Source: Bacillota bacterium
GTDB lineage: Bacteria; Bacillota; Clostridia; Caldicoprobacterales; Xylanivirgaceae
NCBI GenBank assembly: GCA_023621995.1
Contig: JAMOAB010000005.1
Location: forward strand, 1-64,000
Direction: 5' to 3'
Length of the DNA: 64,000 nucleotides
The notes beneath the pieces are model-generated. The model did not search any database, had not been told where the DNA came from, and saw nothing but the letters and a program-made list of their open reading frames with translations. A program made the position numbers and the translations under genes. Positions 37,625 through 44,972 of the stretch are shown in pieces; the stretch's first letter is position 1, and each line of letters opens with the position of its first letter.

Positions 37625-37681
37625 AAAATAAAAAAACAAAAGACTACCTCTCAGCCACTTTTAAATGGCCAAGAGATAGTC
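37625..37681 (-). terminator. Terminator of the STAS gene
   Basis: Minus-strand GACTATCTCTTGGCCA pairs with TGGCTGAGAGGTAGTC, loop TTTAAAAG, followed by TTTTGTTTTTTTATTTTT. Strong intrinsic terminator starting at the stop codon. Confidence 0.9.
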
Positions 37682-38021
37682 AGTCATCGAAGTCTCCCCA
37701 ACTTCCTGTGGTAACCTCCGGCGTCTTCTTTATTTCCATGAGCTCATCCAATTTTGTCATCTCAAGGAGCTTTTGAACACCTAACTTTGGATATTCGATT
37801 ATAAGTTTCCCCCCATTAGATTTTATCTTCTTTAGTAGAGAAATTAAAAGCCCAATGCCAGCACTATCCATAAAGTCTACTTTTGATACATTTAAAATGA
37901 GAACCTTGACGTCTGGATCTATGTGCTTAAAAATATGTTTCTTGATTTTATATGTGTTGGTAAACGATAGAGTATCTACTAGTTCAACCCTTACAGTATC
38001 GCCTTCTCTATCTATTTTCAC
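37680..38021 (-). CDS. STAS-domain anti-anti-sigma-type protein
   Basis: 113 residues. STAS fold: VRVELVDTLSFTN, KVLILNVSKVDFMDSAGIGL with the phosphorylatable Ser53, and GKLIIEYPKLGVQKLLEMTK. The C-terminus TGSWGDFDD is unusual. There is no anti-sigma kinase beside it. A PP2C phosphatase that could act on it lies at 24540. Start GTG 38021 follows GAGGAGGGG. Confidence 0.85.
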   Translation of the reverse strand: MKIDREGDTVRVELVDTLSFTNTYKIKKHIFKHIDPDVKVLILNVSKVDFMDSAGIGLLISLLKKIKSNGGKLIIEYPKLGVQKLLEMTKLDELMEIKKTPEVTTGSWGDFDD

Positions 38022-38053
38022 AGAACAACCCCTCCTCTATAGACATATTTATA

Positions 38054-39154
38054 TTATCCATTGTGCTCTATTATAAAGTCTATAATATCCTTGGCACTTG
38101 GTGGACATCCCTTGAGATATACATCAGCACCCCTTGTACAGCTACCAATGCCTATACCTGTCATTTCCATGTTCTTGTAGCCCTGACCAATATAGATGTT
38201 ACTGCCAACTTTATCTAAAAGTCCCATTTCTCTAATACGCTCTAGGGCGTGTATAAGACTTCCATAACAGGCAGAACAGGCATCTTTGGCATTTATATGC
38301 TTTGATAGATACTCTAATTTATCACTACTCATTTCTATATCTATACCCACTTTTCCACGGTTTAACTCAACTACGTTTGCCTTATTTAAATCAGCACTTC
38401 CCACACCAAGCTCCTCTGCTATACATATGTATTGGATGTCATATTTAGAATAACCAATTAACTTAGCAGCGTATGAATCTATGAGTACTGGATCAAAACC
38501 CATTATAATTCTGTCCATAGATACAGGAGTGCCACCTTCTTCGAATGTGAGGTCGCCTACTATTCCGTCTACTATCACTAAATGGCTCTTTAAGAATTTG
38601 TTGAGCCAAGCTATGGGGGCATGGAGCCCCATGGTGTGAAAACGTCTCTTTTCCCTGTCGGGAATACATCCCTTTAAATTTTTCAAAGCACAGGTTAACT
38701 TAGTTTGACAATGGGCCTTTAAAACAGGTATGTTTATAAGAAAATCCACTTTTTTTGCCATATGGCATATGTTTATGAAAGGTTTCTCTCCATACGATGA
38801 ATAGCTGTCGTCTTTCAGATCTATAAGAGGAACATCATATTCCTGTGATATATCTTCATAGCCGCATACTTTATATGCACGCTTAGTATTATCGCCTACC
38901 CAAGAACTCTCTAATATAATTATATTATGGTATCCATGAGATTTTAGATACTCTATAGTAGCACTTACTATTCTGGGATCTGTTGTAGCTCCCAGGTGGG
39001 AGGGTTTTGCCACAACTAAGTTTGGCTTTATACCTATCAGAATATCCCTATCATTTCCCAGGCGGCTTAGTATATCACCCTTCTCAAAGAGGCTAGGTAT
39101 CATAGTATATGGGTCTTCCCCATACATTACCATTATATCGTTTTTATCTGACAT
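38054..39154 (-). CDS. DUF362 domain protein
   Basis: 366 residues. Starts with IGIKPNLVVAKPSHLGATTD, then LESSWVGDNTKRAYKVCGYE and LINIPVLKAHCQTKLTCALK with NLKGCIPD, the DUF362 pattern. The C-terminal part has cysteines in DACSACYGSL, GSCTRGAD and KGCPPSAKD that could bind an Fe-S cluster. Family members often carry ferredoxin domains and have unclear roles. ATG 39154. It follows nadE by 38 bases. Confidence 0.8.
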   Translation of the reverse strand: MSDKNDIMVMYGEDPYTMIPSLFEKGDILSRLGNDRDILIGIKPNLVVAKPSHLGATTDPRIVSATIEYLKSHGYHNIIILESSWVGDNTKRAYKVCGYEDISQEYDVPLIDLKDDSYSSYGEKPFINICHMAKKVDFLINIPVLKAHCQTKLTCALKNLKGCIPDREKRRFHTMGLHAPIAWLNKFLKSHLVIVDGIVGDLTFEEGGTPVSMDRIIMGFDPVLIDSYAAKLIGYSKYDIQYICIAEELGVGSADLNKANVVELNRGKVGIDIEMSSDKLEYLSKHINAKDACSACYGSLIHALERIREMGLLDKVGSNIYIGQGYKNMEMTGIGIGSCTRGADVYLKGCPPSAKDIIDFIIEHNG

Positions 39155-39192
39155 TTACATCATTCCTTTCACAAGGAAGATTAGATTTAAGA

Positions 39193-40785
39193 TTATCTAA
39201 ATCCATGTACAATGGGCATACATCGTGCCCTTTTAAACCATCCCTTTGCAATACGTATGGGAGGAGCTGCTTGATAACGCTTATATTCACTTCGCCTTAC
39301 CATATTGACAATTCTATATACAGTATCCCTATCGTATCCCCTATCTATTATGTCTTCTTCAAAAAGTCCATCCTCTAGATACATATATAATACTTTATCT
39401 AGTATGGAATAGGGTGGTAGACTGTCTTCATCTTTTTGATCTGGGCTAAGCTCCGCCGAAGGTGGCTTAGTTATAATGGAATTAGGTATTATCTCTTCCT
39501 CTCTATTTATAAATCTACAGAGTTCATACACCTGACTTTTATATATATCACTCAAAATTGCCAATCCACCACACATATCTCCATACATGGTTGTATAGCC
39601 TACATATAACTCCGACTTATTACTAGCCGAGATGAGCATCCTACCTTCTCGATTGGATACAAACATCCATATATCTCCCCTTATTCGGGCTTGTATGTTT
39701 TCCTCTGCCACATCACCAATTGGACTATCATTGTCATCATTAAATATGTCTAAATAAGTTTTAAATACGTTATCAATGGGTATGCACCTATACTCTATGC
39801 CAAGATTTTGGGCAAGCCTATAGGCATCATCCCTACTGCTCTTAGATGTATACATTGAAGGGTTCGAAATTGCTAACACGTTATCACTACCTACAGCATC
39901 GGCAACAATACAGGCTGCGAGGGCTGAATCTACTCCACCACTTAGACCTAAGATAATACTATTTAAACCTGATTTATTGCAATAGTCTCTAAGGCCTAGT
40001 ACCAACCCTTTATAGAGATAGGATATATCCTCTTCTCCAACATCTATACTATCTGTATCGTCCATATCCCATACAAATAAGGTCGCTTCAAAGGAAGGTG
40101 CCTTGGCACACACTTCTCCGTCAGCATTTACAACAAGGGACCCCCCATCAAATATAAGCTCATTATTTCCCCCTATCATATTTATAAATACTATAGGCCT
40201 ACCAACTGACCGTGCCAGCTTAGATAACCTCTCTACACGCTCTGTATATCTACCATAATAGTAAGGGATTGAACATATATTTATAAATAGGTCTATTTCA
40301 TCTTCGTCTAATATACTGCCAAATATATCGTGTCCTTCTATTTCCCCTATGAGCATTCCTATTTTAACTCCCCTATAGTCTAACGTGTAGGGCGTAGTAC
40401 TACTGCTTACAAAATATTTTTCTTCATCAAAGTATACATTTTTATCCAGGCTTCTCTTTGGAAATATACCATATATTGAGCTATCTTTTAGAAGTACCAC
40501 ACAATTTATAAGCTTTCCTGATTGACTGTCTGATATGGCTGCTCCTAGAAGAACATCAATTCCATCTGCTTTTTTTGCAATTTGTTCTAATGCATCTTCA
40601 CATTGTCCTATAAATCTAGGATTATATAAAAGATCGCAAGGAGGATATCCAGTAAGTGCAAGCTCAGGAAAGCACACAAGGTCGCATCCTTGCTCTTTGG
40701 CTTTCCCTATATAGTCTATAATGGTGTCCCTATTGTAGACGATGTCACCAATTATTGTATTGATTTGAGCAATAGCAATCTTCAT
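39193..40785 (-). CDS. nadE: NAD synthase, glutaminase-domain type with missing catalytic cysteine
   Basis: 530 residues: nitrilase-like amidotransferase domain (1-270) plus NAD synthase domain (about 270-530). The synthase P-loop [12 protein letters not shown] and ISASNKSELYVGYTTMYGDM are intact. In the amidase domain Glu41 (CFPELALTGYPP) and Lys110 (IFPKRSLDKNVYFDEEKYF) are present. But the position of the nucleophile in the usual IGLxICEDxW is G147: IGMLIGEIEGHD, codon GGG. So glutamine hydrolysis is probably lost and ammonia would be the nitrogen source. Start ATG 40785 gives MKIAIAQINTIIGD and overlaps the thrC stop as ATGA. Confidence 0.9.
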   Translation of the reverse strand: MKIAIAQINTIIGDIVYNRDTIIDYIGKAKEQGCDLVCFPELALTGYPPCDLLYNPRFIGQCEDALEQIAKKADGIDVLLGAAISDSQSGKLINCVVLLKDSSIYGIFPKRSLDKNVYFDEEKYFVSSSTTPYTLDYRGVKIGMLIGEIEGHDIFGSILDEDEIDLFINICSIPYYYGRYTERVERLSKLARSVGRPIVFINMIGGNNELIFDGGSLVVNADGEVCAKAPSFEATLFVWDMDDTDSIDVGEEDISYLYKGLVLGLRDYCNKSGLNSIILGLSGGVDSALAACIVADAVGSDNVLAISNPSMYTSKSSRDDAYRLAQNLGIEYRCIPIDNVFKTYLDIFNDDNDSPIGDVAEENIQARIRGDIWMFVSNREGRMLISASNKSELYVGYTTMYGDMCGGLAILSDIYKSQVYELCRFINREEEIIPNSIITKPPSAELSPDQKDEDSLPPYSILDKVLYMYLEDGLFEEDIIDRGYDRDTVYRIVNMVRRSEYKRYQAAPPIRIAKGWFKRARCMPIVHGFR

Positions 40786-42296
40786 TGTCCCACACCACCT
40801 AAGTCGAATATTTCCGCCACTGCCCTTTCCATGTCTTCCTTTTCCCACCTTTTAGCATGTCGTATTTCTTTATCTTTTAGTTCTTTTAAAGGATTGGGAA
40901 CCCTAGTACCAGATATTGAAGACAATATATCTAGCATCTCAAATTCATCCCTGTCTTTTATTAGATCTTCTCCCTCTATTCCGATTAAGACATCCTCTAC
41001 AAATTTATAGGGACTTGCAGTAGATACAACTAATACATTGTTTGAGGTTCCTATTTTGTTTTTATAATCATAGAGTACCTTCATACCAACTGCAGTATGG
41101 GGATCTAGTACATATCCAAATTCATGGTATATCTTTTTTATAGTATATAATGTCTCAGCGTCGTTGGCATAACCTCCCCAAAAATTTTGCTTAAGCTTTT
41201 TATGCTGACTATCGGTAAGCTCATATCTACCTTCTTCATTTAGGTTATGCATGAGCTCTACAAGTTCTACGTCGTCCCTCTCTAATATCTCATACAATAA
41301 CCTTTCAAGATTGCTAGATACAAGTATATCCATGGAAGGTGATATGGTCTTATAGAATTCTCTATTACAGTCATATACCCCTGTAGATAAGAAGTCGGTC
41401 AATATATTATTCCTATTGGAAGCACATATGAGCCTATCTATTGGAATGCCCATTTGTTTAGCATAGTATGCAGCTAGAATATTTCCAAAATTGCCTGTAG
41501 GTACAACTACATCAAATGGTTCGTGAAAAATCAAGGTTCCAGCTTTAACCATGTCTATATAAGCTGATATATAATATATAATCTGAGGTACTAACCTTCC
41601 CCAATTTATAGAATTTGCCGATGACAGCCTATATCCTGAGCTCTTCATAACTCTATTAAACTCTCTATCTGTAAATATAGCTTTAACACCTGTTTGGGCA
41701 TCATCAAAATTACCAATGACGCCAAGCACATGGACATTTTTTCCCTCTTGAGTTGTCATCTGAAGTTCCTGTATAGGACTTACACCTTCTGCAGGATAGA
41801 ATACAACTATGTGTGTACCATCAACATCTCTAAAGCCCTCTAAAGCCGCCTTTCCCGTATCTCCTGAAGTAGCAACTAGTATGACTATATCTTCTTCTAT
41901 ACCTTTTTTATCCATAGCAGTCCTCATAAGATGAGGAAGAAGCTGAAGTGCCATGTCTTTAAATGCACATGTGGGCCCATGCCACAGTTCAAGTATACTG
42001 ATATCATCGGTCAATGACACAACTGGTGCGATATTTTCAGATGAAAATTTTTGATGAGTGTATGCACTATCCACACATCTGTCAATCTCTTCCTGTGTAT
42101 AATCTGTCAAAAAAAGGGCGAGAATCTTTTTCGCCCTCTCCCTATAGTCCATATCTATCATATCCAGCAGCAAATTAGAATCAATTACAGGGAACGAAGA
42201 AGGCACAAACAATCCACCATCGGTTGATATTCCCTGTATTATGGCATCTGCTGAATATAATTTTTTATTTTTATCTCTTGTGCTCTCATATACCAT
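40782..42296 (-). CDS. thrC: Threonine synthase
   Basis: 504 residues, long type. PLP enzyme making threonine from phosphohomoserine. N-terminal MVYESTRDKNKKLYSADAII and GISTDGGLFVP; PLP lysine in LWHGPTCAFKDMALQLLP; LVATSGDTGKAALEGF; VVVPTGNFGNILAAYYAKQM (phosphate binding); ANSINWGRLVPQ. ATG 42296 gives the family N-terminus; TTG 42317 is an alternative. Coupled to nadE. A promoter-like TTGACC with TATAAT at a long 19-base spacing (42436-42466) lies upstream. Confidence 0.94.
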   Translation of the reverse strand: MVYESTRDKNKKLYSADAIIQGISTDGGLFVPSSFPVIDSNLLLDMIDMDYRERAKKILALFLTDYTQEEIDRCVDSAYTHQKFSSENIAPVVSLTDDISILELWHGPTCAFKDMALQLLPHLMRTAMDKKGIEEDIVILVATSGDTGKAALEGFRDVDGTHIVVFYPAEGVSPIQELQMTTQEGKNVHVLGVIGNFDDAQTGVKAIFTDREFNRVMKSSGYRLSSANSINWGRLVPQIIYYISAYIDMVKAGTLIFHEPFDVVVPTGNFGNILAAYYAKQMGIPIDRLICASNRNNILTDFLSTGVYDCNREFYKTISPSMDILVSSNLERLLYEILERDDVELVELMHNLNEEGRYELTDSQHKKLKQNFWGGYANDAETLYTIKKIYHEFGYVLDPHTAVGMKVLYDYKNKIGTSNNVLVVSTASPYKFVEDVLIGIEGEDLIKDRDEFEMLDILSSISGTRVPNPLKELKDKEIRHAKRWEKEDMERAVAEIFDLGGVGQ

Positions 42297-42388
42297 ATTT
42301 TGATCTACTCCGTTCAATTTTTATTTAGCATAGGGACAACTACTATTAATGTTATAATATTAAAAATAAATTAATAAAGCCATCCATG

Positions 42389-42439
42389 TAATTATTCAAG
42401 CTCAAAGGCAAATGCTTTAGGTTTGAACTTGAATAATTA
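42389..42439. repeat. Inverted repeat upstream of thrC
   Basis: TAATTATTCAAG (42389-42400) is exactly inverted at 42428-42439, with a further TTGA/TCAA pairing inside. The right arm overlaps a -10-like TATAAT (42436-42441). Could be a regulator site or a leader hairpin; no T-box or known riboswitch motif was found. Confidence 0.45.
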
Positions 42440-42480
42440 TATATCATATATAATGGGAGGGGTCAAGCGCAATAAATAAT

Positions 42481-42508
42481 AAAGCCAAGGGTAAATCCCT
42501 CGGCTTTT
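42481..42508 (-). terminator. Terminator of the small P-loop gene
   Basis: Minus-strand AAAGCCGAGGG pairs with CCCTTGGCTTT around ATTTA, followed by ATTATTTATT. Confidence 0.8.
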
Positions 42509-42513
42509 ACCTG

Positions 42514-42924
42514 TCAAAGAATATATTCTTTGAGAAACACAGGTATATTCTCAGGATTACCACTCATAGTCATGTAGAATTTAACATTGAAGTTATTGGT
42601 TAGTTTTTCTAACTCTGTAAAGAAAGTCTCTATAACGCTTTCCTCTTGTCTATACATATCTAAGAGTCCATCTATATAGATTTTGTCTATATCATAATTT
42701 TGCGCTATGACACCGGACAGAAAGCCGTAAAACTCTCGGAGGTCCTTTATATCGTAATCGTTTATGTCTATATAGCGTATCTTTCTGTCTAGGGCAATTG
42801 TATAGCGATTACTACTATCTATGAATACAACATCACCAAGTCCTTCGGCTGCAGCCCCATTAGCCATGCCAATTATTTTTTTAGTCTTACCAGTGCCTTT
42901 GTCTCCAAAGATAACCTTTATCAA
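42514..42924 (-). CDS. Small P-loop protein, unknown
   Basis: 136 residues. MIKVIFGDKGTGKTKKIIGM is a Walker A loop at the very start. KIYIDGLLDMY (about 81-91) is a Walker B-like strand. The size is below most ATPases. Clostridial relatives are usually called twitching motility protein PilT-like by automated annotation, without strong reason. Start TTG 42924 with GGAGG 8 bases away. Own terminator and a neighbour of typA. Confidence 0.7.
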   Translation of the reverse strand: MIKVIFGDKGTGKTKKIIGMANGAAAEGLGDVVFIDSSNRYTIALDRKIRYIDINDYDIKDLREFYGFLSGVIAQNYDIDKIYIDGLLDMYRQEESVIETFFTELEKLTNNFNVKFYMTMSGNPENIPVFLKEYIL

Positions 42925-42998
42925 ATTAACCGCCTCCCATTACAATTATTCTTAAGGTGTTATTTTTATTATAACATACATGGAAGGTTGTGGCTATA

Positions 42999-44834
42999 TT
43001 ATTTACGGGCTTTTTTGCTCTGTATTCTCTTTCGCTCCGCCGCATCTAATGTTGTCTTTCTCAGTCTGATATTCTTCGGTGTAATCTCAACTAGCTCATC
43101 ATCAGCTATGAATTCTAAAGCCTCCTCCAAGGATAGTTTTCTAGGTGGTACAAGTCTCAGAGCCTCATCCGACCCTGCTGCCCTCATATTGGTAACATGT
43201 TTTCTCTTGCATACATTTACATCTATATCACCAGGTCTTGAGCTTTGACCTACTATCATTCCTTTATAGACTTTAGTTCCTGGTTCGATAAATATAACAC
43301 CCCTCTCTTGGGCATTATAGAGCCCATAGGTAACAGCTTCCCCATCTTCAAATGCAACTAATGCGCCCTGTTGTCTGGAAGGTATATCACCCTTGTAGGG
43401 AGTATAGCCATCAAATATGGTATTCAATATTCCTTCACCCTTAGTATCAGTCATAAATTCGGAACGGTATCCAAATAGCCCCCTAGACGGTATTGAAAAT
43501 TCCAGCCTGACACTTCCACCTCTTAATGTGTTCATGCTCACAAGTTCACCCTTGCGCCTGCCTAATTTTTCAATGACTACACCAGAAAACTGTTCTGGCG
43601 TGTCCACTACTACACGTTCCATAGGCTCATGTCTCTTTCCATCAATCTCCTTATATATGACAGTTGGCTTAGATACTTGGAACTCATATCCTTGTCGCCG
43701 CATTGTCTCTATCAATATGGAGAGGTGAAGTTCACCCCTTCCTGATACCTTAAATGTATCTGGAGAATCGGTCTCTTCCACTCTCAGACTTACGTCTGTC
43801 TTAAGCTCGCGGAAAAGCCGTTCCCTTATGTTTCTTGATGTAACATACTTACCTTCTGTGCCTGCAAAGGGACTATCATTTACAGAAAAAAACATAGATA
43901 CAGTAGGTTCTGATATCTGCACAAATGGCAATGGTTGTGGATGATCTATATGACATATGGTATCACCAATGTTTATACCCTCAATACCAGATATTGCTAT
44001 AATATCTCCTACTTCTGCCTTATCAACTGATTTTCTATTTAATCCATTGAATGTATATAGACTGGTTATCACTGCCTCCTGTTCCTGCGATTCATCTTTT
44101 GAATTGCAGAGGACCACATGTTGATTGACTTCTATAGTTCCCCTCTCAATCTTGCCAATACCTATCCTACCTACATAGTCATTGTAATCTATAGTAGATA
44201 TAAGCATCTGAAGTGGTTCATCCATATCTCCCCTTGGAGCAGGAATGTATTTGACGATTGCGTCAAATAGTGGTTCCATTGAAGTTCCAATTTGATCGGC
44301 ATCAACTGAAGCCCAACCGTCTCTAGCTGACGTATAAATATATGGACAATCTAACTGGGCATCATTGGCATCTAGCTCTATGAGAAGATCTAATACCTCA
44401 TCTACTACTTCCATTGGTCTTGCATCAGGCCTGTCCATCTTGTTGACAACTACTATCCCTGGAAGTTCCAAGTCAAGAGCCTTCTTCAATACAAACTTTG
44501 TCTGAGGCATGGGTCCTTCAAAGGCATCTACAAGCAAAAGTACTCCATCTACCATCTTAAGTACCCGCTCTACCTCGCCGCCAAAATCAGCATGACCAGG
44601 AGTATCTATTATATTTATTTTTATATTATTGTGCAGGATAGCAGTATTTTTAGATAGTATAGTTATACCTCGCTCCCTCTCCAATTCATTGGAATCCATA
44701 ACTCTATCTTCTATCTGTTGATTTTCCCTAAATACTCCACCTTGCCTAAGTAACTGATCGACCAAGCTAGTCTTACCATGGTCCACATGGGCAATTATGG
44801 CAATATTTCTTATATCCTCTCGTGTTTTTTCCAT
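42999..44834 (-). CDS. typA: Ribosome-associated GTPase TypA/BipA
   Basis: 611 residues. G1 AHVDHGKTSLVDQLL, G2 RGITI in ERERGITILSKNT, G3 DTPGHADFGGEVER, G4 VVNKMDRPDA, G5 YTSARDG. Domains II, III, V and the BipA-specific C-terminal domain follow (RREGYEFQVSKP-like MRRQGYEFQVSKPTV; CKRKHVTNMRAAGSDEA). It aids 50S assembly under stress. ATG 44834 is preferred over TTG 44843, because GGAAGGG is spaced well. Confidence 0.96.
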   Translation of the reverse strand: MEKTREDIRNIAIIAHVDHGKTSLVDQLLRQGGVFRENQQIEDRVMDSNELERERGITILSKNTAILHNNIKINIIDTPGHADFGGEVERVLKMVDGVLLLVDAFEGPMPQTKFVLKKALDLELPGIVVVNKMDRPDARPMEVVDEVLDLLIELDANDAQLDCPYIYTSARDGWASVDADQIGTSMEPLFDAIVKYIPAPRGDMDEPLQMLISTIDYNDYVGRIGIGKIERGTIEVNQHVVLCNSKDESQEQEAVITSLYTFNGLNRKSVDKAEVGDIIAISGIEGINIGDTICHIDHPQPLPFVQISEPTVSMFFSVNDSPFAGTEGKYVTSRNIRERLFRELKTDVSLRVEETDSPDTFKVSGRGELHLSILIETMRRQGYEFQVSKPTVIYKEIDGKRHEPMERVVVDTPEQFSGVVIEKLGRRKGELVSMNTLRGGSVRLEFSIPSRGLFGYRSEFMTDTKGEGILNTIFDGYTPYKGDIPSRQQGALVAFEDGEAVTYGLYNAQERGVIFIEPGTKVYKGMIVGQSSRPGDIDVNVCKRKHVTNMRAAGSDEALRLVPPRKLSLEEALEFIADDELVEITPKNIRLRKTTLDAAERKRIQSKKARK

Positions 44835-44972
44835 ATATAACAACCCTTCCTAAAGTATATATCTCACACCTATTATTCCACAAAAATATATTCTATCATC
44901 TTTAAAACTCATTGGCAATAAAAAACTTTAATTCTAAAATAAACTTTTACTTTCTCTACTCTACATAAGACA

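Follow-up and report, generated by a model that had tools for sequence, protein, structure and literature searches.

The nadE gene of the 64,000-nucleotide stretch of DNA analyzed here (the window), which belongs to a clostridial order including Caldicoprobacter oshimai, very likely encodes a fused NAD+ synthetase whose N-terminal glutaminase domain has been inactivated, leaving the enzyme dependent on ammonia (Table 1). In the published view there are two NadE classes, with or without a glutaminase domain, and the domain is equated with the use of glutamine (PMC7196632, PMC3376133). All previously characterized fused NadEs use glutamine (PMC3376133), and the mosaic of NadE forms has been attributed to transfer and gene loss, with no decay in place (PMC7196632, PMC3376133). 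No earlier report of a NadE with a dead glutaminase was found in searches of open-access literature.

Table 1. Features of the nadE locus, with positions in the window.
Feature	Position	Strand	Evidence
thrC (threonine synthase), upstream of nadE and overlapping its start	40782..42317	(-)	Pfam, synteny
nadE, two-domain NAD+ synthetase, 530 aa, predicted glutaminase-dead	39193..40785	(-)	translation; NF010588 572 bits; 5kha E=9e-122; AF2 pLDDT 90.7
N-terminal nitrilase-fold (former glutaminase) domain, residues 1-245	40051..40785	(-)	PF00795 at 2-242, E=4e-19; raised rate and dN/dS
NAD synthase domain, residues 252-530, intact	39196..40032	(-)	PF02540 E=1e-70; motifs invariant
Codon 147 GGG (Gly) for the nucleophilic Cys	40345..40347	(-)	Cys in 134/134 active homologues
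Glu41, catalytic Glu, kept	40663..40665	(-)	in 92/92 active enzymes and 14/16 dead ones from the order
Lys110, catalytic Lys, kept	40456..40458	(-)	in 92/92 active enzymes and 11/16 dead ones from the order
Residues 116-121, NVYFDE, equivalent to the YRE loop (YDxFDE in the consensus of active enzymes)	40423..40440	(-)	mapped from tbNadE 127-132
Ile173 for Ser of the SASPY motif	40267..40269	(-)	Ser in 134/134 active homologues

The reading frame opens with an ATG overlapping the thrC stop and runs for 530 codons to its own stop. The product has the fused (type F) architecture, a nitrilase-fold N domain (PF00795) joined to a synthase domain (PF02540 at residues 259-505, 238 bits), and its NF010588 score lies above the cut-off of 479. 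The initial annotation had called the synthase domain complete, and indeed the P-loop SGGVDS and the other synthase motifs are invariant, which identifies the protein as an NAD+ synthetase by its motifs. A further mark of the fused type is an extended C-terminal loop with the alpha18 signature; in the window protein, a C-terminal extension that finishes in PIVHGFR can be aligned as far as the last residues of two-domain enzymes. Over most of the N domain the AF2 model is of high confidence, and its top PDB matches are two-domain NadEs. The protein resembles the dimeric NadE2-Gln (NF010588/PRK13981; 5kha, 4f4h) in its two domains, its length class, its fold and its synthase motifs, but the nucleophilic Cys is missing along with most of the glutamine pocket, and the protein is predicted not to use glutamine.

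Replacement of the nucleophile by Gly, proposed in the initial annotation, is borne out by alignment: Gly147, in the context IGMLIGEIEGH, corresponds to the Cys of the solved two-domain NadEs 5kha, 4f4h and 3n05. (The last of these PDB entries, 3N05, is titled NH3-dependent NAD+ synthetase although the protein has two domains, a deposited name at odds with the architecture.) A sequencing or assembly error was considered and rejected, since the same-genus orthologue (73% identical) also carries Gly (GGG) and independent genomes carry GGA, GGC and GGT, so that the residue recurs under four different Gly codons. The E-K-C triad is complete in all 134 Cys-bearing homologues; in the window protein, Glu41 and Lys110 remain, as the annotation had stated, and the triad is broken at position 147. 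By the triad criterion this would be a NAD+ synthetase of fused architecture that is not glutamine-dependent.

The damage extends further than initially described. We chose 15 near-invariant active-site positions, each conserved in at least 120 of the 134 Cys-bearing two-domain NadEs; every one of these 134 enzymes keeps at least 14 of them, while the window protein keeps six, the altered residues including Pro114, Tyr116, Asp117, Arg123, Asp149, Trp151 and Ser173. Also deleted is a segment near the active site, after residue 156, that 90 of 92 active enzymes possess. In the YRE loop, which was located by its offset from the catalytic Lys with tbNadE residues 127-132 as the reference and whose Tyr touches glutamine in tbNadE (PMC6946656), Tyr116 and Asp117 are lost and Phe119 and Glu121 are kept. 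Scaffold residues, among them Q7, N9, G13, N18, G46, N202, G205, G214, S216, G223 and F232, have been retained throughout the 16 dead orthologues from this order.

These 16 orthologues, representing all distinct full-length nadE genes of three families (f1, f2 and f4), lack the Cys without exception, which answers the suggestion that orthologues be checked for the same change, whereas the site is complete in all six distinct nadE genes of a fourth family (f3). In all four families nadE adjoins thrC and is the positional orthologue, live and dead genes alike. The Cys being absent from every full-length gene found in three families and the surrounding site being eroded, the change of nitrogen donor appears to be old and finished in this lineage; the annotation's wording of a switch in progress does not hold here. 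In the synthase-domain tree, f1 is the sister of the live family f3, and grouping the dead genes in one clade is rejected, though weakly (AU p=0.04); the RpoB tree has the same branching (90/89), but there a single dead clade is not rejected (AU p=0.13). Two or three losses of the Cys inside the order, rather than one, are therefore favored, though not proven. That f3 regained an intact nadE by transfer was considered unlikely, as its gene lies in the same setting as the dead genes and its synthase domain groups with that of f1.

The block typA-orf-thrC-nadE-STAS (window 37680-44843) is conserved across families of the order, although no TypA match at E 1e-100 was found in the Caldicoprobacter family (f2). 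The ORF between typA and thrC (136 aa, window 42514-42924) is likewise conserved in the order and has a P-loop-like motif, GDKGTGKT, at its start; it has no Pfam match. In one genome of the Caldicoprobacter family (G004:C5, locus L030, 1011-2532) the dead nadE is split into three frames, the synthase domain being a separate 271-aa ORF; the frame breaks may be an assembly error, since the other NadE gene of this genome is broken too.

To characterize selection on the two domains, we compared their rates on a fixed tree and in pairwise alignments. Dead branches give a ratio of N-domain to C-domain rate of 2.24, as against 1.51 for live branches and 1.03 for the live family f3 (Mann-Whitney p=0.0014). 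With dS near saturation in some pairs, pairwise dN/dS is 0.13-0.25 for dead N domains; the synthase domains encoded by these genes give 0.05-0.11, and the N domains of live genes 0.04-0.09. The dead N domain thus evolves faster and under relaxed constraint, yet it remains under purifying selection. It would be kept as a structural part that supports the fold and the dimer, perhaps with allosteric control by NAD+ or PII. That such control is the main reason for keeping the domain, whatever the nitrogen donor, is a tentative reading: NAD+ inhibits dimeric NadE2 and PII lifts this inhibition (PMC7196632), and the continuing purifying selection fits, but a structural need (folding, dimerization) accounts for the same data. 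This reading is compatible with ammonia dependence and bears only on why the domain persists.

The gene content of related genomes speaks to the nitrogen donor itself. The dead two-domain protein is the sole clear NadE in eight genomes (G002, G012, G016, G021, G022, G025, G026 and G027), and all except G027 have no other CN_hydrolase match; the MAGs are incomplete, and these absences are not absolute. NadD scores above its family cut-off in all eight, so that NaAD can be made there, and NAD synthesis in these genomes must draw on ammonia or on a glutaminase of another class. At least four genomes that are more than 90% complete have no NAD synthetase and no nitrilase-family protein besides the dead NadE, which makes it very probable that the enzyme uses free ammonia. 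The synthase domain would adenylate NaAD with ATP and then amidate it with free NH3, and the nitrilase-fold domain would no longer be able to form the gamma-glutamyl thioester. Two-domain enzymes accept free NH3 in vitro, as seen for human NadE (kcat 20 per s, Km 42 mM for NH3; PMC6946656). The initial proposal that the enzyme is probably ammonia-dependent is strongly supported by the combination of a broken triad, an eroded pocket, no replacement Cys and, in several genomes, no other NadE or nitrilase-family protein. Two observations count against it: Glu41 and Lys110 are kept in the window protein, which is unexpected after very long neutrality, and the window genome carries another NadE-like gene, with a single domain, which weakens the case for that genome's own dependence on the dead enzyme.

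Ammonia might instead be supplied in trans by a separate glutaminase, as in the two-subunit amidotransferase of Thermus. Two-subunit NadE does exist (PMC3376133) and the window genome has other CN_hydrolase genes, but the seven genomes in which a sole dead NadE occurs without any other CN_hydrolase speak against this, a test that covers nitrilase-class glutaminases only, and the domain retained in cis would fill the docking site; we regard such a supply as improbable. It is still less probable that the N domain continues to hydrolyze glutamine by means of another nucleophile, either Cys171 or an activated water held by the remaining Glu41 and Lys110. Both the window protein and the protein closest to it have Cys171 (INICSIPYY), but only three of the 16 dead orthologues do, no Cys specific to dead proteins is conserved among the 16, and the pocket residues Tyr116, Asp149, Trp151 and Ser173 have gone as well.

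The second NadE-like gene of the window genome (G000 C116:20403-21314, minus strand; L002:1462-2373) encodes 303 aa and scores above the TIGR00552 cut-off and below the single-domain equivalog cut-offs; G001 has such a gene too, as do several more genomes in the order. That this paralogue makes the NAD+ and that nadE is a decaying redundant copy is the least credible reading, as the synthase domain shows full conservation (dN/dS of about 0.06 for the pair G000 and G001), the frame is open in 16 orthologues, and eight genomes have no second clear NadE.

Further Cys-less two-domain NadEs were found elsewhere in Bacillota. Among the 87 phylum-sampled genomes examined that have a complete N domain, the Cys is missing in 16 (18%). 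In a tree of 168 distinct two-domain NadEs, 34 Cys-less and 134 Cys-bearing, the former make up about 12 clades if regain is excluded, while unrestricted parsimony gives 11 changes, these counts being approximate given a quick tree search and some weak branches. The Cys-less proteins grade from 14 to none of the 15 site residues (L282, 14/15; L242, 13/15; L085, 0/15). In seven of them from other Bacillota families (L282, L242, L147, L271, L272, L274 and L276) the Cys is replaced by Gly and the site is otherwise largely intact, and these appear to be early-stage losses; L282 and L242, with little beyond the Cys to Gly change, suggest that early stages of the switch do exist, in lineages other than that of the window.

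Gly is present in 10 of the 12 Cys-less clades; in some of the eroded proteins (L025, L053, L246, L262 and L270) the nucleophile position cannot be aligned with certainty. A single change in TGY can have seven missense outcomes, of which Gly is one, so this excess is unlikely to arise by mutation alone (about 2e-7 by a hand calculation that ignores mutation bias and uncertain ancestral states). The catalytic Cys of the nitrilase superfamily is held in a strained turn, and Gly may be favored through release of strain at this turn or through easier entry of ammonia via the old pocket.

Compared with the single-domain NadE-NH3, the window protein has the same predicted donor, free ammonia, but it still has a nitrilase domain, in folded form, as well as the C-terminal extension, and is nested among fused enzymes in the phylogeny. 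The closest analogy, and no more than an analogy, is offered by mammalian carbamoyl phosphate synthetase I (CPS1), where a fused or associated glutaminase domain has likewise been inactivated by loss of the Cys and external ammonia is taken. Human CPS1 has Ser294 in place of the glutaminase Cys (PMC4655335), as against Gly in NadE, and its class I glutaminase and its synthase are both unrelated to those of NadE. The C176A mutant of Mycobacterium tuberculosis NadE (3sez, 3seq, 3szg, 3sdb) is a folded two-domain enzyme with the nucleophile removed at the corresponding position; it differs in being an engineered single change in an enzyme of another size class, while in the natural window protein the pocket is eroded as well.

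On balance, we favor a scenario in which fused NadEs in Bacillota went back from glutamine to ammonia on some ten or more separate occasions, with the change of Cys to Gly coming early, graded erosion of the pocket following, and selection preserving the domain for a structural or regulatory role. All dead members examined exceed the NF010588 cut-off, even one that has none of the 15 site residues, so that annotation based on architecture would misstate their nitrogen donor. To the two published NadE states a third would be added, together with a third route to the present mosaic, decay in place. If the scenario is true, domain architecture is no predictor of the nitrogen donor, and these lineages provide a natural series of stages in the inactivation of an amidotransferase, in which close pairs of live and dead enzymes (f3 and f1; L150 and L241; L243 and L147) are suited to asking why the dead domain persists, why Gly is favored and whether ammonium-rich habitats drive the loss.
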